10,995 nt of DNA, from positions 1-10,995 of the forward strand of contig QCTA01000029.1 of assembly GCA_003211335.1 (NCBI GenBank), in the 5' to 3' direction. Below, in pieces: positions 1 to 10,995 of this stretch; the first letter of the stretch is position 1, and the number at the start of each line of letters is the position of its first letter. The translations under genes and the position numbers were made by a program. Origin of the DNA: Prochlorococcus sp. AG-670-O11 (lineage in GTDB: Bacteria > Cyanobacteriota > Cyanobacteriia > PCC-6307 > Cyanobiaceae). The notes under the pieces are model-generated. The model had not been told where the DNA came from, searched no databases, and was given only the letters and a program-made list of their open reading frames with translations.

Positions 1-705
1 TTTTGTTGATAACTCTCTTAATTCTTTTATAGTATTTTTAAGCAATTCCGGATTAAATTCATCTAACAAAATACTATCCGCTCCTGCTAAAACTGCATCT
101 TTTGCTTGCTTAATATCTTCTGCTTCAATAATAATATGAGTTGTAAATGGAGTATTTAACCTAATTTTTTTTACTGCATTTTTCAAGTTGTCAGTCCATG
201 CGATGTGGTTTTCTTTAATCATTGCGGCATCGTATAGTCCCATCCTATGATTAATACCACCACCACATTTAAAAGCATACTTTTCAAATATTCGTAAACC
301 AGGAGTAGTTTTTCTTGTATCTGCTAAACGTATATTTGTCCCTTTTAAAGCATCTACAATATTTTTTGTATAAGTTGATATTCCGGATAGATGCATTGAG
401 ATATTGAGACTTATTCTTTCACTTGTTAGTAGGCTTATTGACGGTCCATATAGTTCTAAAAGTTTTTGGTCCTTCATAAATTTTTCGCCATCATCAATAA
501 AAAATTTACACTCTATCTTTTTATCAATTTTTTTTAAAATTGTTTTTATTATTGCAACACCACAAAATACTCCTTCTTCTTTTGCTATCCAATGTGCTTT
601 TCCTATTTTTTTGGTAATTATCGAAGATGTTAAATCACCTTTTCCAATATCTTCTTCAATCCAATCATCAATAATCCTAGATATATTTGGAGAGTAAAAG
701 TCCAC
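1..705 (-). CDS. nadC: Nicotinate-nucleotide pyrophosphorylase (carboxylating), partial at the 3' end
   Basis: Quinolinate phosphoribosyltransferase, the cytosolic enzyme that converts quinolinate and PRPP to nicotinate mononucleotide in de novo NAD synthesis. I translated 235 codons; the C-terminal ~50 residues of a ~285-residue family lie beyond the left edge. Family landmarks are in order: DDWIEEDIGKGDLT near the N-terminus, HLSGIST about residue 100, DTRKTTPG about 128, the GGGINHRMGLYD substrate-binding stretch about 145, KENHI about 160, and the late IIIEAED segment. The start is GTG at 703-705. A TGA lies in frame three codons upstream and no ATG is available before mid-gene, so GTG is the only reasonable choice; no clear Shine-Dalgarno site precedes it. 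A tatataaa string on the minus strand (753-760) could serve as a -10. It lies downstream of the mnmE fragment, in the same direction, with a 76-bp gap. Identification is secure; the start is moderately sure. Confidence 0.93.
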   Translation of the reverse strand, partial: MDFYSPNISRIIDDWIEEDIGKGDLTSSIITKKIGKAHWIAKEEGVFCGVAIIKTILKKIDKKIECKFFIDDGEKFMKDQKLLELYGPSISLLTSERISLNISMHLSGISTYTKNIVDALKGTNIRLADTRKTTPGLRIFEKYAFKCGGGINHRMGLYDAAMIKENHIAWTDNLKNAVKKIRLNTPFTTHIIIEAEDIKQAKDAVLAGADSILLDEFNPELLKNTIKELRELSTK

Positions 706-781
706 TAAGGTTCAATAAGATAACGAATTTTATTTTAACTTTTAAAGTTTACTTTATATATTTATGTAATTTAATTAAAAT

Positions 782-1087
782 TTATTTACCTATACAAAAT
801 TTTGAAAAAATATTATTTAGTAGATCTTCAGTTAATTCTTGACCTGTAATTCTCGATAAGTTTTTTATTCCATCTCTAACTTCAATGGATAATAAATCGA
901 AGGGTAATTGATTAGCAATTATTTGATCAGTATCATTTAAATTTTTTAGGCAATCAGTTAGGTTTGATATTTGTCTTTCATTTAAAAAAACATCTATATT
1001 TTCAAATTCTTTTGATCCACATTTTTTAACTATCTTTTCAACTAAATCTTTTTCTCCTTCATATTTACTTTCATTAAATCTAAGATT
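782..1087 (-). pseudogene. mnmE: C-terminal fragment of tRNA modification GTPase MnmE, no start codon
   Basis: Reading the minus strand up from the stop at 782-784 gives about 101 codons ending in [13 protein letters not shown], the hallmark MnmE C-terminus whose cysteine takes part in tRNA wobble-uridine modification. Other family stretches are [23 protein letters not shown] and [10 protein letters not shown], all from the C-terminal helical domain. The frame is closed upstream by a stop at 1088-1090 and contains no Met codon. The folate-binding domain, the first helical segment and the GTPase domain are all absent. An mnmE N-terminus is present at the other end of this window on the opposite strand, so this looks like the tail of a gene cut by an inversion or by a chimeric join. 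The first few codons (about 1055-1087) belong to the murG side of the join, because the murG frame also reads through them. Confidence 0.88.
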
Positions 1088-2082
1088 TCATAATTAGGTT
1101 TACCTTTTTTTAAGGTAAATTTAAAAATCCTTTTCAAAGTCTCATCAAAAAATATCTTAGATAATTTTTTTTGATTTATTAAAATTGCACCTCCAATTGA
1201 AGAAAGAATCATTGCATTTTTTTCTTGATGGTTATTTTTAGAATTAGGGTATGGAATTAAAATTGATGGTTTTCCAGTTTGAATAAGTTCATTTATTGTT
1301 CCTGCTCCAGATCTTGATATTACTAGATCACAGTTTTGCATCAAAGATGCAATTTGCTTAGTAAATTTTTTTTGTACATAGTTAGTAGATTTTGTTTTTA
1401 TGGAACTTTGTAAATTATTTTCTCCAACAATATGAATTATTCGAAAATTTTTTTTTATTAAAAAATTAAGAGATTCATATAAAATCTCGTTAATTTTCTT
1501 TGCACCTTGACTTCCTCCCATAACAATTAGAAGGGGGCCTCTTCCTTTTGGAACCCAATGTGGTAATGGATTTTTTTTATAAAACTCTTCTCTTAGAGGA
1601 GTTCCCGTAAAAATAGTTTTGCAATTTTTTAAATAAAAATTTGTATCTTTAAACCCCATAAGAACAAATTTACATAAAAAACCAAAATATTTTGTAACCG
1701 TTCCTGGTATTAAGTTTGATTCGTGAATAATAACAGGTATTTTAAGGAAATTTGCTGCAAGAATTGTTGGGGCTGCAATATATCCACCAGTTGTAAATAC
1801 CAAATTAATTTTTTTTTCTTTTAGGATTTTAATAATATTAAAAGTCGAAGATAAAATTTTTAGATATTGAATTAGTATAAAAATATTTTTTTTTGGTGTC
1901 TCCAAATTTAAAGTCAAAAGATTATACTTTTTAGGCACAAATTTAGAATCAAGTCTTTGTTGAACACCTAACCAATACAAATTCCAATCTTTTTCAACCT
2001 TTTTAGAAACTGCTAAAGCGGGGAAAATATGACCTCCAGTTCCACTTGCCGCAATTAATAAATTATTTCTGTTTTTAGACAT
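1042..2082 (-). CDS. murG: UDP-GlcNAc:lipid I N-acetylglucosaminyltransferase MurG, probably with an altered C-terminus
   Basis: GT-B glycosyltransferase that adds GlcNAc to lipid I to form lipid II on the inner face of the plasma membrane, the last cytoplasmic step of peptidoglycan synthesis. In 346 residues I see the N-terminal glycine loop SGTGGHIFP (13-21), TTGGY (98-102), IHESN (119-123), the second-domain loop MGGSQGA (188-194), [10 protein letters not shown] (256-265) and the donor-binding NHQEKNA (284-290). The ATG at 2080-2082 gives the expected N-terminus. After YEILDLMK (331-338) the reading frame enters the mnmE fragment and ends at a TAG (1042-1044) that is out of the mnmE frame. 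From memory, relatives continue about 20 residues further, so the native tail is probably replaced by a few foreign codons. The catalytic motifs are all upstream, so activity may survive if the join is real. It diverges from the next gene with only 27 bp between start codons. Confidence 0.95.
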
Positions 2083-2109
2083 TAAACATTAAATAAGTAA
2101 AATAAAGTC

Positions 2110-2841
2110 ATGAAAATACTTAACTTAAATTGGTTTACAAAATCAGGATTATTTATCTATATAATTATTTATCTCATTTTTCCAAAATTAGCAATCACCC
2201 AAAATACAAACGTTGATATAAGAAAAAATCTTGAAAATGCATTAAATGATAGAAACTTAAAATTGATAAAAAACATTTTCAAAGAAGAAGAAAACCTAAA
2301 AATGGAAGATAAATTTAAGGAATTAATCAAAGATTTTCCTAATTCAAAATGGGAAATTAAAACATTAAGCGGAGGAAAATCTAAAGAAAATATATTTAAA
2401 ATTAAAGTTAATGGAAAGAAAAGACTTAGTGGGGAAATATTCCTTCTTGAATCTAATTTTAAGTATTTATTTTCTACTCAAAATGACAAAATATATAATG
2501 GCCATATAAAAGATTTATTAACTACTATCAGAAATGACCAAAATAACTTAGATATTATTTTTAGAATTCCCGAGAAAGTCCTTACAGGTGCAAAATATGA
2601 TATTGATATTATTCTAAATGAACCACTTGGTGATGTAATTATAGCTGGAGGAATAATAGCTCATCAGGAAGAATCTTATCTGAAACAAGAAATCAATATT
2701 GAACCTTTAGCCTCGGGAGGTATTTTTAAAACGACTAGAGCGTCATCCAAACCAGCTACACAAATATGGTCTGGTATTATAACTCATCCAAAAGGAACGA
2801 TTTCCTTCACAAAAAGCGTTGAAATTGTTGAAAAGATATAA
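2110..2841 (+). CDS. Conserved exported hypothetical protein
   Basis: A 243-residue protein I cannot assign to a named family. The N-terminus has a short basic start (MKILNLNWFTKSG), then a hydrophobic stretch of about 15 residues (14-29, rich in Ile/Tyr/Leu/Phe) ending near LAITQ, which fits a Sec signal peptide or a membrane anchor; the rest is hydrophilic. Residues 35-80 are charged and probably helical (KNLENALNDRNLKLIKNIF). The second half (about 145-243) alternates beta-prone segments and ends in a fold resembling a small Ig-like or beta-sandwich domain, but that is only an impression. It lies divergently 27 bp from murG and convergently 1 bp from the pgk stop. I recall an orphan gene at this place in related Prochlorococcus genomes. 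Export plus the murG neighbourhood hints at an envelope or thylakoid-lumen role, which is inference only. No Shine-Dalgarno site is seen before the ATG. Confidence 0.8.
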   Translation: MKILNLNWFTKSGLFIYIIIYLIFPKLAITQNTNVDIRKNLENALNDRNLKLIKNIFKEEENLKMEDKFKELIKDFPNSKWEIKTLSGGKSKENIFKIKVNGKKRLSGEIFLLESNFKYLFSTQNDKIYNGHIKDLLTTIRNDQNNLDIIFRIPEKVLTGAKYDIDIILNEPLGDVIIAGGIIAHQEESYLKQEINIEPLASGGIFKTTRASSKPATQIWSGIITHPKGTISFTKSVEIVEKI

Positions 2842-2842
2842 T

Positions 2843-4051
2843 TCAGACGTCTTTTAGGGCCGCTACCCCAGGTAAAGTTTTACCTTCTAAAAGTTCTAAA
2901 CTAGCACCTCCACCAGTTGATATATGCGACATTTTTTCAGCCAAGCCAGCTTTCTCCACAGCAGCTACAGAATCTCCCCCTCCAATAATTGTACAAACAT
3001 CAGCGAAAGAACTTAAATCAGCCAAGGTGGTCGCTATTGCATTTGTACCTTCAGCAAATTTATCAAATTCAAAAACACCCATTGGGCCATTCCAAATAAT
3101 TGTTTTGCATTCGGCAAGAGCATTTTGAAAAACTTTGATTGATTCAGGCCCAATATCTAATCCCATCCAATCACCACTTATGGAATCTATTTGAGAGACT
3201 TTACTTTCTGCAGTAGGAGAAAACTCATTAGCAAGTACTACATCAGAGGGTAAAAGAAGCTCAACACCTTTAGTTTTTGCTTTTGCCTCTAAATTTCTTG
3301 CTAGCTCAAGTTTATCTTCCTCAACAAGACTCTTACCAACATCTAATCCTCTTGCCTTATAGAAAGTAAAAATCATACCTCCACCAATAATAATTTTGTC
3401 ACACTTATCTAAAAGAGAATCTAAAACTCCAATTTTGCTACTTACCTTAGAACCTCCTACTATTGCCGCAAGAGGACGTTTTGGGGCATCTATAGCGCCT
3501 TGTAAATATTTCAACTCTTTTTCTAACAAAAATCCTGCTAATGAAGGCTCTAAAAAATTAGTAACTCCTTGAGTTGAAGCATGAGCTCTATGGGCAGCTC
3601 CAAATGCATCGTTAACATATATATCTGCATGAGAGGCTAAATTTTTAGCGAAATCTAAATCATTTTTTTCTTCCTCCTCATAAAAACGAACATTTTCTAG
3701 TAATAAAACATCCCCATTGTTTAAATTATTAGACTTAGCTAGAGCTTCTTCACCAATACAGCTTTCAGTTAAATTAACTTTTTTTTCCAATATATCGCTT
3801 AATCTGTCGGCAACTGGGGTTAATCTCATTTTCTCATTAACTTTCCCTTTAGGTCTTCCAAAATGAGCAGCTAATATAACTTTGGCTGAATTATTTATAA
3901 GAAATTTTATCGTAGGAATTGCTGCCCTTATTCGGGTATCGTCAGTAATCTGACCACTATCATTTAATGGAACATTAAAATCAACCCTTACAAGAACTTT
4001 TTTCCCTTCTAATTTAGACTTATCAAGACTGGAAAGAGACAACTTCGACAT
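2843..4051 (-). CDS. pgk: Phosphoglycerate kinase
   Basis: Catalyses 3-phosphoglycerate + ATP to 1,3-bisphosphoglycerate + ADP; in a cyanobacterium it serves the Calvin cycle by day and glycolysis by night, in the cytosol. The 402 residues match the usual bacterial length. Seen in order: RVDFNVPL (22-29, substrate Asp and Asn), the substrate Arg at 40, HFGRPKG (63-69), LENVRF with Arg122, [14 protein letters not shown] (147-160, Arg155), VGGSKVSSK (198-206, nucleotide-side lysines), WNGPMGVFE (320-328), IIGGGDS (355-361) and [13 protein letters not shown] (378-390). All key residues are present. The ATG at 4049-4051 gives the standard [10 protein letters not shown] start. Codon use is slightly less AT-biased than its neighbours, as expected of a highly expressed gene. 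A candidate NtcA-type promoter lies 30-75 bp upstream. Its stop is 1 bp from that of the convergent hypothetical gene. Confidence 0.98.
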
Positions 4052-4275
4052 TAAGACATCCTATTTTTACCATGAGACCCTAACGTTAATTTGAGCTTAT
4101 TGGGTTAAAAAGTAGTAACTGTTACTTATGCCTTAATAAAATTTAAAATTAGGTAGAAAAAAAAATTAATAAAAATAAAAAAAAATTTATTTTTTACATT
4201 AATATTATATGTAAATACTTTTGAAATTAATAAGAATCAAAAGGGACACAAATACAATTTATAGGATTTAATCAA
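4052..4275. other. AT-rich divergent intergenic region between pgk and rbgA
   Basis: This is the longest non-coding stretch in the window (224 bp) and should hold the promoters of both flanking divergent genes. The pgk-proximal half contains the GTA-N8-TAC element described separately. Positions about 4135-4200 are nearly pure A/T with long A and T tracts and no visible gene or hairpin with GC content. On the plus strand TATTAT (4203-4208) is the best -10-like hexamer for rbgA and would give a leader of about 60 nt; no convincing -35 goes with it. AGGA (4263-4266) lies 9 bases before the rbgA GTG and is a plausible ribosome binding site. No tRNA or known small RNA was recognised. Confidence 0.6.
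4083..4125 (-). promoter_or_regulatory. Candidate NtcA-activated promoter upstream of pgk
   Basis: The sequence GTA-gtaactgt-TAC at 4112-4125 matches the NtcA consensus GTA-N8-TAC. On the minus strand, toward pgk, it is followed after 23 bases by TAACGT (4083-4088), which fits TA-N3-T. The established class II NtcA promoter is GTA-N8-TAC, 20-24 bases, then TA-N3-T, so the spacing is right and would leave a 5' leader of about 25 nt. An overlapping 13-nt palindrome AGTAAC-T-GTTACT (4114-4126) adds symmetry. In the opposite direction (toward rbgA) the nearest TA-N3-T is only 18 bases away, a poorer fit. Caution: a six-base match is expected several times by chance in 11 kb of this composition, and the -10 is only a 3/6 match to TATAAT. 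Confidence 0.35.
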
Positions 4276-5142
4276 GTGGAAATACCTATTATTCAATGGT
4301 ACCCAGGCCATATTGCCAAAGCTGAAAAAAAGCTATCTGAAGTTATAAATAGAGTGGATTTAATTATAGAAGTTAGAGATGCAAGAATTCCTTTATCAAC
4401 AGGACATCCGCATCTTAATAAATGGATCATAAACAAAAAACATATTCTTGTTATTAATCGGGCGGATATGATAAGTAAAGATACTATAACTAATTGGAAC
4501 AAGTGGTTTAAAAAAAACAATATATATCCTCTTTGGTCTGACGCAAAAAATGGCAAAGGAATAAAAGAGATTTGCAAATCAGCAAAGGAATCCCGATTAT
4601 CAATTGATAAAAGAAGGTTATCCAGAGGAATGAAGGTTAGGCCGATCAGAGCACTTACCCTCGGTTTTCCTAATGTAGGGAAATCTGCATTAATAAATAG
4701 AATCGCTAAGAAAAAAGTTGTAGAAAGCGCTAGGAAAGCAGGAGTAACTCGTAATCTCAGATGGATCAGATTAGATAGTGGAATAGATTTGCTAGACGCA
4801 CCCGGTGTTATACCACCTAATCTAGATAATCAAAAATCGGCTCTAAATCTTGCACTTTGCGATGATATTGGAGAAGCTGCTTATGAAATAGAGAGTGTTG
4901 CGATTGAATTTATAAAATTAATTTTAAGATTAAAAGAGGATAAAAATGCAAATATTTCACTTTCAAAGATTTCTGATAGATATGGGGTTGATATATCAAA
5001 GATCCTTGATAGCCCTTATGAATGGATTGATCTTGTAGCCTTGAAACATACCTCAGGTGACAGAAGAAGAATGGCTCATAAATTATTAGAAGATTATCGT
5101 AATCAAATGCTAGGAAAGATTGCTTTAGAAGTACCGATATGA
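4276..5142 (+). CDS. rbgA: Ribosome biogenesis GTPase RbgA/YlqF (circularly permuted GTPase)
   Basis: Essential-type GTPase that acts in late 50S subunit assembly. The protein is 288 residues, close to the ~280 of B. subtilis RbgA. It opens with the family signature IQWYPGHIAKAEKKL (6-20). GTPase motifs are in the permuted order G4-G5-G1-G2-G3: NRAD at 61-64 (usual form NKxD), SDAK at 88-91, the P-loop GFPNVGKS at 130-137, GVTRN with Thr158, and DAPG at 174-177 (usual DTPG). A C-terminal helical RNA-binding-type domain follows (about 185-288). The start is a GTG at 4276-4278 with AGGA 9 bases upstream; no in-frame ATG gives the conserved N-terminus. It overlaps the next gene by 4 bases (ATGA, 5139-5142), so the two are almost certainly co-transcribed and translationally coupled. 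The NRAD and DAPG variants are mild and probably tolerated. Confidence 0.93.
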   Translation: MEIPIIQWYPGHIAKAEKKLSEVINRVDLIIEVRDARIPLSTGHPHLNKWIINKKHILVINRADMISKDTITNWNKWFKKNNIYPLWSDAKNGKGIKEICKSAKESRLSIDKRRLSRGMKVRPIRALTLGFPNVGKSALINRIAKKKVVESARKAGVTRNLRWIRLDSGIDLLDAPGVIPPNLDNQKSALNLALCDDIGEAAYEIESVAIEFIKLILRLKEDKNANISLSKISDRYGVDISKILDSPYEWIDLVALKHTSGDRRRMAHKLLEDYRNQMLGKIALEVPI

Positions 5143-6101
5143 AATCAAGTAATGAAAATTCTTTTGGATTTGGAGAAGGTGAACTAATAGAAATTGCTTA
5201 TGAGATGCCCCTTCCTATGAGACTCGATAGATGGCTTGTAAGCAAAAGACCGGAACAGAGTAGAGCAAGAATACAACATTTTATAAACGCAGGATTAGTT
5301 CTTGTTAACTACAAAACTGCAAAAGCTAAAACCCCACTAAAAACAGGAGATAATATACAAATTTGGATGCCTCCCCCAGAACCTCTTATCTATTTGAAAC
5401 CAGAAAAGATGAACTTAAATATTCTCTTTGAAGATGAACATATCATTGTAATTAACAAACAATCAGGACTAATAGTCCATCCAGCCCCAGGTCATAAATC
5501 AGGAACATTGGTAAATGGCCTACTTTATCACTGTAAAGATCTCCCTGGAATAAATGGCAAATTAAGACCTGGAATAGTTCATAGATTAGATAAGGACACC
5601 TCTGGATGCATGGTTGTAGCAAAAAGCCAAGAATCACTAGTCAATCTTCAAATACAGATAAAAGAAAAAATCGCTTCAAGAAATTATATTGCGGTTATTC
5701 ATGGAGCACCCAATACTTCAGAAGGTAAAATTATTGGAAATATAGGTAGAGACAAACTGAATAGATTGAAATATGCAGTAGTTGATGAAAATTCAGGAAG
5801 ATATGCATGTACTTACTGGAAATTATTAGAAAGATTGGGTAATTACTCATTAATGAGTTTCAAATTAGATACAGGAAGAACTCATCAAATAAGAGTTCAT
5901 TGTGCATATATCAATCACCCTATTCTTGGTGATCCTTTATATGGAAGGTGTAAAAAGCTTCCTTGCAAATTGGAGGGTCAAGCTTTGCACGCCGTAGAGC
6001 TAGGGCTTTTTCATCCAATAAATGGAGAGAAAATGAAATTTGAGGCAGAATTACCCCAAGAATTTAAGAAATTATTACGGGTATTAAAAAAAATCAATTA
6101 A
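5139..6101 (+). CDS. rluD: RluA/RluD-family 23S rRNA pseudouridine synthase
   Basis: Isomerises uridine to pseudouridine in large-subunit rRNA. An N-terminal S4 RNA-binding domain (about 28-85: MRLDRWLVSKRPEQSRARIQ, later GDNIQIWMPPPEP) precedes the catalytic domain. The catalytic motif is GIVHRLDKDTSG (145-156) with Asp151 as nucleophile. INKQSGLIVHPAPGH (105-119), KLDTGRTHQIRVH (242-254) and HPILGDPLYG (260-269) are further family marks. The length of 320 residues is typical. The domain plan (S4 plus catalytic) matches RluD/RluC types; RluD, which modifies helix 69, is the best guess, but the exact target uridine cannot be read from sequence. The start ATG overlaps the rbgA stop, placing it in a two-gene operon for 50S maturation. 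Its 3' end overlaps the convergent ABC gene by 8 bp. Confidence 0.9.
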   Translation: MKSSNENSFGFGEGELIEIAYEMPLPMRLDRWLVSKRPEQSRARIQHFINAGLVLVNYKTAKAKTPLKTGDNIQIWMPPPEPLIYLKPEKMNLNILFEDEHIIVINKQSGLIVHPAPGHKSGTLVNGLLYHCKDLPGINGKLRPGIVHRLDKDTSGCMVVAKSQESLVNLQIQIKEKIASRNYIAVIHGAPNTSEGKIIGNIGRDKLNRLKYAVVDENSGRYACTYWKLLERLGNYSLMSFKLDTGRTHQIRVHCAYINHPILGDPLYGRCKKLPCKLEGQALHAVELGLFHPINGEKMKFEAELPQEFKKLLRVLKKIN

Positions 6102-7689
6102 TGTTTAAGGAGCTATTTACTAAAGCTTTTGTCACATTACTCTTAGGATTAGAAAAAACAGTAGAAGAATCACCTGCTTCAATAATCTCTCCATAATTCA
6201 TCACAATTAATCTATCACAAAAATTTTTTGCTATTCCCAAATCATGTGTAATGAAAATAATAGTTAAATCCATTTTTTCTTGCATCTTTTTTAGTAAACT
6301 AAGTATCTCAACTTTTACATATGCGTCTAACATATTTACACTTTCATCGCAGATAAGAATTTTTGGTTTAAGTAATAATGATCTTGCAATTGAAATTCTT
6401 TGTAATTGCCCACCAGACAATTGACTTGGGTATGAGTTTAAGAATTCAGAATCTGAAGGAAGATTTAAATTTCTTAATGTTAGTGTAATCTCATTTTTAA
6501 TTTGAGTTTTATTATAAATTTTTTGAATTAAAAAGATATCCTTCAAAATATTTTTTATTTTCATTTTTGGATTAAAACTTGAAAAAGGATCTTGGAAAAT
6601 TATTTGTATATTTTTAAAATTATTAGACTTTTTTTTACATAATTCTAGATTTCTTTCATAAACTCTTATTTCACCTCCTCTCACCTTTAATAGACCTATT
6701 AAAGCTCTACATAAAGTACTTTTTCCACTACCAGAAGATCCCACAATTCCTAGGACTTCATTTCGATATAATTTAAAACTAATTTCTTTCAAAGCCTTAT
6801 TCCATTGGGGTTTAAAAATTGAAGAATTTGCTTTATACCAGTGTCTTAAATTATTCACTTCTAAAACAACATCACTTGCAGGGGTAACTTTTTTTCTTGG
6901 TTTCAAAGATATATTTGCAGCATTTACCAATTTTGCTCCAATCTTTGACTTAGGCAATTGAAAAACTTCTTCTATATTTCCTTGTTCTTTAATTGATCCT
7001 TCATCCATTATGACGACTTTTTTACACCACTTTGCTGCGAGATTAATATCATGACTAATTAAAATCAAAGTAGTTCCTGATTTCTCACATAAAAATAGAA
7101 TTTCATTCATTACCTCAAAACTAGTCTTAGTATCCAGACTTGTTGAAGGTTCATCTGCTATTAATATTTTTGGTTTCAAAGCTAAAGCCATTGCAATTGA
7201 AACTCTTTGTCTCATGCCTCCACTAAATTCATGAGGAAATGAATTTAATCTATTAAAATTTATTCCTACTTTTCTAAAATTTTCTTCGACTAAATCTTTA
7301 ATGATTAAACGGGAATTGTTTTGAAAGTGTGTTTTGAATAATTCTTCTAGATGATCTCGAACTGTCATTAATGGATTAAGTCTTTTTATAGAGTCTTGGT
7401 AAATAAATCCAAAATTATTTCTCCTAAATAATTGAATTTCTTTTTTATTAATTTTCGTGAGATCTTCTCCAGATATTTTTATAAAACCTTCAGTAATTGA
7501 ACCTTCAGGGAGCATATTTACAATTGATTTTGCAAATGTAGTTTTACCACATCCAGAAGGACCTATTATTGCTAGGTGATCTCCTTTAAACAGATCTAAT
7601 TTAAAATTTTTTAAAGTATATTTCTGGTTAGGACCATATTTGACATTTAGATTCCTGATTTCAAGAATTTTGCTTTTATTGATTTTCAT
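6094..7689 (-). CDS. Fused dual ATP-binding subunit of a peptide/nickel-type (Dpp/Opp) ABC transporter
   Basis: One 531-residue polypeptide carries two complete ABC nucleotide-binding domains, resembling DppD fused to DppF. Domain 1: Walker A GPSGCGKTT (43-51), Q98, signature FSGGMRQR (155-162), Walker B ILIADEP (175-181), D-loop SLDTKT (184-189), His213. Domain 2: Walker A GSSGSGKST (317-325), Q366, signature LSGGQLQR (424-431), Walker B ILICDES (444-450), D-loop MLDAYVK (453-459), His482. Both sites look catalytically competent. The linker (about 250-275) carries the LVNAANI...PRKK stretch typical of the C-terminal extension in oligopeptide ATPases. No permease or substrate-binding protein is in the window, so these must be encoded elsewhere; the substrate (peptide, nickel or other) is unknown. 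The ATG at 7687-7689 lies 43 bp from the divergent RSH start, and the 3' end overlaps the convergent pseudouridine synthase gene by 8 bp. Confidence 0.9.
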   Translation of the reverse strand: MKINKSKILEIRNLNVKYGPNQKYTLKNFKLDLFKGDHLAIIGPSGCGKTTFAKSIVNMLPEGSITEGFIKISGEDLTKINKKEIQLFRRNNFGFIYQDSIKRLNPLMTVRDHLEELFKTHFQNNSRLIIKDLVEENFRKVGINFNRLNSFPHEFSGGMRQRVSIAMALALKPKILIADEPSTSLDTKTSFEVMNEILFLCEKSGTTLILISHDINLAAKWCKKVVIMDEGSIKEQGNIEEVFQLPKSKIGAKLVNAANISLKPRKKVTPASDVVLEVNNLRHWYKANSSIFKPQWNKALKEISFKLYRNEVLGIVGSSGSGKSTLCRALIGLLKVRGGEIRVYERNLELCKKKSNNFKNIQIIFQDPFSSFNPKMKIKNILKDIFLIQKIYNKTQIKNEITLTLRNLNLPSDSEFLNSYPSQLSGGQLQRISIARSLLLKPKILICDESVNMLDAYVKVEILSLLKKMQEKMDLTIIFITHDLGIAKNFCDRLIVMNYGEIIEAGDSSTVFSNPKSNVTKALVNSSLNIN

Positions 7690-7732
7690 AATTTTGTAGC
7701 AAATTTCACTAGTCCTAAATAAAATAAACTTA

Positions 7733-10054
7733 ATGGATCATTATATGTCTGAGGCAACTGCGAATTCAAAAGAAAAAAATGAAATTAAAGTTTCAACAAT
7801 CATTTTGCCTGAAAATAAGAATTATGAAAGTGAATCTTTGAAGTATGAGATAAAAATTCCTAATTGGCTTCTTAAAAATATTCAAAACTATGAAGTATCA
7901 AATTCTAAAAATGATGCTAATCAAAATCTTATAGTAAAAGCTTTTAAACTTGCATATGAAGCTCATAATGGACAATTTAGAGCAAGTGGTGAGCCATATA
8001 TAATTCATCCCATTGCTGTTGCAGATCTTCTTAAAGAAATAGGAGCAAGTTCCTCAGTTATAGCTGCAGGCCTATTACATGATGTTGTTGAAGATACAGG
8101 AATTGCTCTTTCTGAGATAGAAGTTAATTTCGGCTTAGAAGTAAAAGTACTTGTAGAGGGTGTCACTAAATTAGGGGGAATTCACTTTAATAATAGAACT
8201 GAAGCACAAGCTGAAAATCTCAGAAAAATGTTCTTAGCTATGGCAAGCGACATAAGGGTTGTTTTAGTTAAACTTGCAGATCGACTTCATAATATGAGAA
8301 CAATTCAATGGCTTAATGAAGAAAGAAAAGAGAGAATTGCAAGAGAAACGAGAGAAATATATGCCCCTTTAGCAAACAGACTAGGAATAAATCGATTTAA
8401 ATGGGAATTAGAAGATTTAGCATTTAAATTCCTTGAGCCAGAGGAATACAAAAATTTAAAAGATCAAATTGCCGTTAAAAGAAGTGATAGAGAAAAAAGA
8501 TTAGATGTAACTTTAAATTTAATGAAGGAAAACTTAGTCTCATCAGGTTTAGAAAATTTTGAAATTACAGGAAGACCAAAACATCTCTACGGTATTTGGA
8601 GCAAAATGGTAAGACAACAAAAACAATTTAACGAAATTTATGATGTTGCGGCTTTAAGAATTATTGTAAGCAATTCAGATAGCTGTTATAAAGCTTTAGC
8701 AGTTGTTCATGATACTTTTAGACCAATTCCGGGTAGATTTAAAGATTACATAGGTTTACCAAAACCTAATGGATACCAGTCTTTACATACTTCTGTGATA
8801 GGAAGACATAGGCCTATTGAAGTTCAAATTAGAACTACTTCAATGCATCAAATTGCAGAATTCGGAATAGCTGCTCATTGGCAATATAAAGAAGGGGGTT
8901 CACCTGCTTCTAGTAATGCAGAAAGATTTAATTGGCTTAGACAACTAGTAGAATGGCAACAAGAAGGTAATAACAAAGATCATAATGACTATCTAGCATC
9001 AATAAAAGAAGATTTATTCGATGAAGAAGTATTTGTGATCACACCTAAGGGAGATGTTGTTGGTCTAAGGAAAGGATCAACTGCAATCGATTTTGCCTAC
9101 AGGATACATTCAGAAATAGGTAATCATTGTAATGGGATAAGAATCAATGAAAAGCTATCGCCTCTATCTACATCATTGCAAAATGGGGACTTTATAGAAA
9201 TTTTGACTAATAATAATTCAACTCCAAGCTTAGATTGGTTAAATTTTGTAGTTACTCCAACTGCCAAAAATAGAATTCGCCAATGGTATAAGAAAAGTCA
9301 TAGAGATGAGACTATAAAGAGAGGGAAAGAACTACTTGAAAAAGAGGTAGGACGCAATGGATTTGAATCATTACTTGCAAGTGATGCAATGAAAAAAGTT
9401 GCACATCGATGCAATTTAAAGACAACTGAAGATCTTTTAGCATCATTAGGATTTGGCGGTTTAACTTTACACCAAGTATTAAATCGATTCAGAGAAGAAA
9501 TTAAAATACAAACAGAAGAAATTAAAAATGAATCTAATGCTGAGATAGCAAAAACTCTTATAAATAAAAATAATTCAATAACAACTAAATCTCATGCGAA
9601 TAATAAATCACCAATCACTGGGGTTGAAGGCCTTGATTATAGAATTGGAAAATGCTGCAGTCCACTTCCTGGGGAGGAAATAATTGGAACTGTCTCTCTA
9701 GGTAATCATGGTATTACTATTCATAGAAGAGATTGTGAGAACGTTATCCCAATACCAATAGAGAGAAGATTACCTGTTGCATGGAACCAAGAGAATAAAA
9801 TTCTTGACAAAAAGTTTCCAATTCAACTTAGAATAGAAGTGATAGACAGAGTAGGAGTCCTAAAAGATATTCTTATGAGATTATCTGATAAAGGAATAAA
9901 TGTTAGTGATGCAAATGTAAAAACCGCTTTTGGAAAACCTGCCATTATTAATTTATGTGTTGGTCTAGAAAGTTATAATCAACTCCACAAAACTATTGAT
10001 CAAATTAAATCAATGGCTGATGTGATAGATATTGCGAGAGTAGGAATAAGTTGA
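7733..10054 (+). CDS. spoT: Bifunctional (p)ppGpp synthetase/hydrolase, RelA/SpoT homologue
   Basis: Controls the stringent-response alarmone (p)ppGpp. The 773 residues carry the full long-RSH plan. Hydrolase HD domain (about 70-220): RASGEPYIIHP (83-93), LLHDVVEDTG (114-123, metal-binding HD and ED), LADRLHNMRT (181-190). Synthetase domain (about 260-390): RPKHLYGIWSKM (281-292), YDVAALRIIV (303-312), RFKDYIGLPKPNGYQSLHT (335-353), PIEVQIRT (361-368). TGS domain (about 430-492), a helical region, a zinc-finger/RIS-type Cys motif KCCSPLPGEEIIG (640-652) with Cys668, and a C-terminal ACT domain (about 696-770). RFKD (335-338) is the basic RxKD form known from bifunctional enzymes, as opposed to ExDD of synthetase-only RelA; with an intact HD site this predicts both activities. 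ATG 7733 gives MDHYMSEATA; an in-frame ATG at 7745 (residue 5) is equally possible since neither has a Shine-Dalgarno site. Confidence 0.97.
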   Translation: MDHYMSEATANSKEKNEIKVSTIILPENKNYESESLKYEIKIPNWLLKNIQNYEVSNSKNDANQNLIVKAFKLAYEAHNGQFRASGEPYIIHPIAVADLLKEIGASSSVIAAGLLHDVVEDTGIALSEIEVNFGLEVKVLVEGVTKLGGIHFNNRTEAQAENLRKMFLAMASDIRVVLVKLADRLHNMRTIQWLNEERKERIARETREIYAPLANRLGINRFKWELEDLAFKFLEPEEYKNLKDQIAVKRSDREKRLDVTLNLMKENLVSSGLENFEITGRPKHLYGIWSKMVRQQKQFNEIYDVAALRIIVSNSDSCYKALAVVHDTFRPIPGRFKDYIGLPKPNGYQSLHTSVIGRHRPIEVQIRTTSMHQIAEFGIAAHWQYKEGGSPASSNAERFNWLRQLVEWQQEGNNKDHNDYLASIKEDLFDEEVFVITPKGDVVGLRKGSTAIDFAYRIHSEIGNHCNGIRINEKLSPLSTSLQNGDFIEILTNNNSTPSLDWLNFVVTPTAKNRIRQWYKKSHRDETIKRGKELLEKEVGRNGFESLLASDAMKKVAHRCNLKTTEDLLASLGFGGLTLHQVLNRFREEIKIQTEEIKNESNAEIAKTLINKNNSITTKSHANNKSPITGVEGLDYRIGKCCSPLPGEEIIGTVSLGNHGITIHRRDCENVIPIPIERRLPVAWNQENKILDKKFPIQLRIEVIDRVGVLKDILMRLSDKGINVSDANVKTAFGKPAIINLCVGLESYNQLHKTIDQIKSMADVIDIARVGIS

Positions 10055-10072
10055 TTTGAATTTAAAAGAACT

Positions 10073-10525
10073 TTAAAATACCCTTTTTTTTATTTTTCTT
10101 TTGTAAAGCAAGAAAACGATCGTACCAGAAATAGAAGCTAATAATAATCCAACTAATACTGAACCCAAAATTAATCTTAAAGAATAAAAACTACCTTGTT
10201 TCCATAATTCTTCTATCATTAATTTTTTATCAAAAACGTTTTCTGGAGTATTTTTTAGAAAGAATGAACCAACTTTATAATTAAAATAATATAGAGGTAC
10301 ATAAGTAAAAGGATTACTTATCCAAGTTCCAATTACAGCAAGAAAAAGATTTCCTTTCGCAACTCTTGCTAAAAATAATCCTAATAAAGTCTGAAACCCA
10401 AAGAATGGGAAACATCCGCAAAAGACACCAGCCGCTACTCCCTTTGCATTAAAAAATGGAGTCCCATTTTGTTTCAAAAAAAATGATAGAATTTTTTTAT
10501 AGTTAAAACTCTTTATCAACTTCAT
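10073..10525 (-). CDS. DUF2062 family small membrane protein
   Basis: A 150-residue protein with family-typical elements: GVAAGVFCGCFPFFGFQTLLG (29-49), whose GVF-G-P-GFQ pattern is the DUF2062 hallmark, and SNPFTYVPLYYFNYKVG (70-86), matching the NP-T-P-Y region. Three hydrophobic segments are visible (about 30-52, 58-82 as a re-entrant or membrane-associated stretch, and 115-141), and the end is strongly basic (YKRKIKKRVF), probably cytoplasmic. The molecular function of the family is unknown. The ATG at 10523-10525 is the only reasonable start. Its stop is 18 bp from that of the convergent RSH gene, and it diverges from mnmE across 66 bp containing an imperfect palindrome. I recall a gene of this kind between mnmE and the RSH gene in related Prochlorococcus genomes. 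Confidence 0.82.
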   Translation of the reverse strand: MKLIKSFNYKKILSFFLKQNGTPFFNAKGVAAGVFCGCFPFFGFQTLLGLFLARVAKGNLFLAVIGTWISNPFTYVPLYYFNYKVGSFFLKNTPENVFDKKLMIEELWKQGSFYSLRLILGSVLVGLLLASISGTIVFLLYKRKIKKRVF

Positions 10526-10537
10526 TCTAAAATCACA

Positions 10538-10558
10538 ATCAAAAAAGCTTTCTTTGAT
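10538..10558. repeat. Imperfect palindrome between divergent DUF2062 and mnmE genes
   Basis: The 21-nt string atcaaaaaagctttctttgat is self-complementary around a central C (10548), with eight Watson-Crick pairs, one G-T pair and one A-C mismatch in ten positions. It sits 12 bp before the DUF2062 start and 33 bp before the mnmE start, so it could be an operator or, as RNA, a weak hairpin. Most of the arms are A/T, and such symmetry arises readily by chance in AT-rich DNA. Confidence 0.25.
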
Positions 10559-10591
10559 AAGCCTACTTAATTATCCATAACATAGTGAGAG

Positions 10592-10995
10592 ATGGAATCA
10601 ATTGTCTATACTGAAGATACAATAGCAGCAATAGCTTCGGCTATTAGTCTAGGTAAAGGAGGAATTGCAGTTATAAGAGTATCTGGGGAAGAAGCAATAA
10701 ATTCCTGTAAAAATATTGTAGAAACACAATCTAAATATGCTTGGGAGTCTCATAGAGTTTTTCATGGATTCGTCAAAGATAATTTAGAAAATAAATATAT
10801 AGACGAAATTTTAATTTCAGTTATGCATTCTCCTAATAGTTTCACTGGAGAAGATATTGTTGAGTTACACTGTCATGGAGGAGTAATAGTTGTAAATAAA
10901 GTGATGGAAACATTATTATCAAATAATACTGGAGTAAGGATTGCAAATCCAGGAGAATTTAGTCAAAGAGCTTTTATTAACGGCAAAATAGATTT
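10592..10995 (+). CDS. mnmE: tRNA uridine-5-carboxymethylaminomethyl modification GTPase MnmE, N-terminal part, runs off the right edge
   Basis: MnmE (TrmE/ThdF) works with MnmG to add the (carboxymethyl)aminomethyl group at wobble uridine 34 of certain tRNAs. I translated 134 codons from ATG 10592: the N-terminal formyl-tetrahydrofolate-binding domain, with [21 protein letters not shown] (9-29, Gly-rich opening), [22 protein letters not shown] (about 74-95) and [16 protein letters not shown] (119-134). These match the family closely and no frameshift is seen. The GTPase domain and C-terminus would lie beyond 10995. A CIGK-ending mnmE tail is present at 782-1087 on the opposite strand, so whether this copy is complete is a real question: in an inversion it would lose its last ~100 codons about 1 kb past the edge. 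Upstream, TAACAT (10578-10583) resembles a -10 but lies only 8 bp before the ATG. Confidence 0.94.

Follow-up and report, generated by a model that had tools for sequence, protein, structure and literature searches.

An inverted join between mnmE and murG in a Prochlorococcus window, probably arising during DNA amplification

Genes and gene fragments of the window

The window, that is, the whole stretch of DNA analyzed (10,995 nucleotides), begins in nadC, of which 235 codons counted from the start lie on the minus strand before the gene runs off the left edge (1 to 705; TIGR00078, 5.9e-72), and continues with the 3' part of mnmE on the same strand (782 to 1061). These are followed by a murG frame (1042 to 2082, minus strand), a gene for a hypothetical protein of 243 amino acids with no Pfam or NCBIfam match (2110 to 2841, plus), pgk, encoding phosphoglycerate kinase (2843 to 4051, minus; PF00162, 1e-164), rbgA/ylqF, encoding a ribosome biogenesis GTPase (4276 to 5142, plus; TIGR03596), an rluD-like gene for an RluA-family pseudouridine synthase (5139 to 6101, plus), a gene for an ABC transporter ATP-binding protein with two ATPase domains of the dipeptide/nickel type (6094 to 7689, minus), a RelA/SpoT homologue (7733 to 10054, plus; TIGR00691), a gene for a DUF2062 protein (10073 to 10525, minus; PF09835, 3.8e-36), and the 5' part of mnmE, which runs off the right edge (10592 to 10995, plus). 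Open reading frames together with Pfam and NCBIfam profile matches thus returned the same intervening genes as the initial annotation, which had been made from the letters and their reading frames.

Some features of these genes can be described in their own right. The gene for the 243-residue hypothetical protein sits between murG and pgk, inside a block whose order is conserved in relatives. The rbgA and rluD-like genes, which lie on the same strand, share 4 bases (5139 to 5142), while the rluD-like and ABC transporter genes overlap tail to tail by 8 bases (6094 to 6101). In addition, the DUF2062 protein gave a weak NCBIfam match to a model of the type IV secretion effector BspA (1e-12); at 48 bits, where the cut-off is 300, this match is a sign of shared DUF2062 ancestry and nothing more.

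We then focused on the two pieces of mnmE, whose head and tail had been placed on opposite strands at the two ends of the window, as reading frames, protein alignment and BLAST blocks all bear out. At the left end, an open minus-strand frame running from 1087 to 782 encodes 101 amino acids ending in FCIGK. Residues 10 to 101 of this frame align with residues 369 to 460 of MnmE in the near relative L001, with 88 of 92 identical, and the frame matches the Pfam MnmE_helical family (1.5e-18). Since the MnmE-derived part stops at approximately 1061, and 1062 to 1087 comes from murG DNA translated in a different frame, the tail amounts to approximately 92 residues; the initial annotation was correct in its identity and ending, but too generous in giving it approximately 100. 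At the right end, 10592 to 10993 encodes MnmE residues 1 to 134 with 94% identity to L001, in agreement with the N-terminus proposed there, and matches the NCBIfam mnmE model (2.4e-34). MnmE is 460 amino acids long in relatives, and both pieces align with the L001 protein free of stops or gaps. Comparison with four relatives gave 3–7 silent and 4–7 replacing changes in the 92 codons of the tail, and 14–26 silent and 8–11 replacing changes in the 134 codons of the head. As changes in the tail are no more conservative than those in the head, these counts, which are too few to decide the matter, do not demonstrate continued selection on the tail.

Native MurG has 364 amino acids in L001, L007, L013 and L018. 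In the window, approximately 340–342 native codons are left, free of stops or frameshifts up to the join at approximately 1057 to 1061, after which the frame closes within a few wrong-frame codons of mnmE DNA. The cut frame scores 246.7 with the NCBIfam murG model, slightly below the curated cut-off of 250.25, so that automatic annotation could leave it unnamed.

The join and its counterparts in related genomes

Comparison with relatives holding both ends showed that the window consists of two long blocks of opposite orientation, each collinear, which come from one neighbourhood of approximately 12 kb (BLAST). Positions 2 to approximately 1061 match Prochlorococcus DNA in reverse and cover part of nadC and the last 92 or so MnmE residues, while positions from approximately 1057 to 10995 match the same neighbourhood in the forward direction, from murG to MnmE residue 134. 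Against L001, window positions 2–1066 fall on 17612–16548 (reverse) and positions 1058–10995 on 5919–15854 (forward). The closest matches in the genome collection come from Prochlorococcus, at approximately 91% nucleotide identity. The join thus cuts mnmE internally on one side and, on the other, murG 22–24 codons short of its stop, at the very breakpoints proposed earlier, and in relatives these two sites are found on opposite strands approximately 10.6 kb apart (10.63 kb in L001).

The extent of sequence shared at the join was taken from an anchored comparison with the near relatives L001–L021, and not from the 9-base overlap of the BLAST blocks (1058 to 1066). The anchored comparison places the switch at approximately 1057 to 1061, with the window agreeing with the mnmE site up to and including CCTTCAT and, from ATATTT onward, with the murG site. 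At the mnmE site, 12 of 16 near relatives have CTTCAT. Of the 17 rows for the murG site, one is empty, 6 have TTCATATTT and the other ten differ within TTC; 2–5 bases (up to TTCAT) are therefore common to both normal sites, depending on the strain's own former sequence, and for most of the murG rows with sequence (10 of 16) the common stretch is just 2 adjacent bases. For a random join, the chance of sharing at least 5 bases was computed as approximately 0.009 at 30% G+C.

To establish the normal order, a protein search was run from the middle of the block with the rluD-like gene as query, and 80 loci were kept of the 275 relatives found. The mnmE site was spanned by 65 of these loci, the murG site by 72 and both by 59, with two loci (L005 and L017) spanning neither. 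All 59 loci spanning both sites are collinear in the normal order. No strand switch was detected in the 80 loci (1.48 Mb) among segments of at least 300 bases matched to three reference loci, a length below which a switch would escape the survey. In a first trial on six genomes to which the loci led, five carried both halves on one contig in normal order, and the sixth (G002) gave a strong match for the nadC-mnmE half only. Moreover, 20 assemblies were selected by size from 266 genomes of this genus, and all 20 carry the two halves on a single contig, in opposite strand orientation and approximately 10.6 kb apart. The junction 31-mer was found in none of the 266 genomes with up to 3 mismatches allowed, a search that can miss a homologous junction with more differences, and the exact junction 40-mer in no viral_contigs record.

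Overall, these comparisons agree with the initial annotation in that flipping the block restores the order nadC-mnmE-DUF2062-RSH-ABC-rluD-rbgA-pgk-hypothetical-murG, present in 59/59 loci and 20/20 assemblies. The same counts rule out a fixed natural arrangement with murG beside nadC, an observation in relatives that the initial annotation had named as speaking against a recent rearrangement.

Possible origins of the join

With both breakpoints and the flipped order confirmed, the choice between an inversion and an inverted chimera, as initially posed, is the right one, and indirect evidence favours the chimera. We consider it likely that a strand switch in vitro created the join as an inverted chimera, most probably at the stage of phi29 multiple displacement amplification (MDA) or a kindred method; as biology, the join is most likely not real. 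Under this explanation, a Prochlorococcus cell or DNA sample would have been amplified in this way ahead of sequencing. While one side of the locus was being copied, the growing 3' end would have left its template and annealed, through a few bases, to a displaced strand of the same neighbourhood at a site approximately 10.6 kb distant, from which it would then have been extended in the opposite direction. The chromosome itself would presumably keep the normal nadC-to-murG order, with mnmE and murG both whole.

The chimera is the likeliest explanation as its form (inverted, from one neighbourhood, with short shared bases) is the one published for MDA chimeras. Lasken and Stockwell (2007, PMC1855051) reported that 406 of 475 MDA chimeras were inverted, with 337 of these 406 within 10 kb; complementary bases, at least 2 of them, occurred in 76.8%, ranging from 2 to 21 at most joins, and the mechanism described there has displaced 3' ends pairing with nearby displaced strands. 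The present join resembles these inverted chimeras in the orientation of its segments, as seen by BLAST against relatives, in their single neighbourhood, and in the few complementary bases, whose number (2–5, within the published 2–21) is deduced from relatives diverged by approximately 9%. It differs from those described in PMC1855051 in that its sites lie 10.63 kb apart in L001, barely outside the favoured class below 10 kb, while inverted joins beyond 10 kb had complementary bases in just 34.8%. It also differs in being known from assembled sequence, and from a source whose amplification is probable, where theirs were seen in single reads.

Further observations weigh on both sides. In favour of a chimera, two conserved genes are cut and yet their pieces carry neither stop nor frameshift before the join, names that read as single-cell genomes are frequent among the 80 relatives, the order in relatives is normal, and the junction is missing from the genomes searched. 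Prochlorococcus single-cell genomes have been amplified by MDA or WGA-X, with a benchmark giving a mean of 1.5 misassemblies in every 100 kb (PMC6122165). Against a chimera count its distance, the deduction of the shared bases from diverged relatives with only 2 adjacent bases in most murG rows, and the report that P. marinus single-cell assemblies had the fewest misassemblies (PMC5519541). In addition, the contig edge falls approximately 0.7 kb short of the place where a chimera would start repeating, and the lack of any strand switch in the 80 loci indicates that such joins are uncommon in deposited assemblies of this kind.

The main alternative is a very recent, strain-private chromosomal inversion of approximately 10.6 kb, joined at a few shared bases, which would split mnmE at approximately residue 368 and remove the last 22–24 residues of MurG. 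We regard it as unlikely, even though it accounts for the blocks and the shared bases just as well, and the codon counts, too few to decide, show no constraint on the mnmE tail beyond that on the head. The inverted arrangement, expected in a relative or an independent sample if the inversion were not private, was found in 0/59 spanning loci and 0/20 assemblies, and the junction in 0/266 genomes; a strain-private inversion would likewise be absent from relatives, so that the result is the same under that reading. An inversion would damage both MurG and MnmE, and MurG is essential in bacteria with peptidoglycan. Neither a mobile element nor a long inverted repeat was seen at the join. Long inverted repeats were also rejected as a cause of inversion, since the repeat search of the window gave just short or imperfect AT-rich pairs among the 25 of 33 inverted pairs listed, a search that covers the first site only, as the window ends before the second site of a true inversion. 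Inversions are known in Prochlorococcus, and the rearrangements described in PMC6102989 include, as here, blocks of changed orientation; those, however, lie mostly near genomic islands, whereas the present join cuts two conserved genes and occurs in none of the relatives examined. The existence of a living Prochlorococcus lineage with a very recent inversion of approximately 10.6 kb, no intact MnmE and a shortened MurG appears quite improbable.

The inversion and the chimera predict identical sequence up to the mnmE break, and the window sequence alone cannot separate them. Past this break, a chimera would continue into a second mnmE tail and nadC, read in the opposite sense, whereas an inversion would enter the murG tail. 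The initial annotation rightly set the separating point past the right edge, but at approximately 1 kb; in L001 the distance is approximately 0.7 kb (16548 minus 15854).

The least probable reading is a chimera that arose in some other way, by library ligation, by PCR or through an assembly or scaffolding error, perhaps involving two related metagenome strains: a join between two near strains would be invisible, as both blocks are about equally distant (approximately 91% identity) from their nearest relatives, but the 2–5 bases shared lie far below the word length that assemblers usually use, and random ligation would be unlikely to bring together two pieces of one 12-kb neighbourhood.

Meaning for analyses of amplified genomes

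The amplification chimera that we favour is mainly a caution, as analyses of gene neighbourhoods or gene loss in amplified genomes may misread such a join as a rearrangement, a broken mnmE or a shortened murG. If the join were instead a true inversion, a streamlined genome would have lost MnmE naturally, which is unusual, and would also encode a trimmed MurG.
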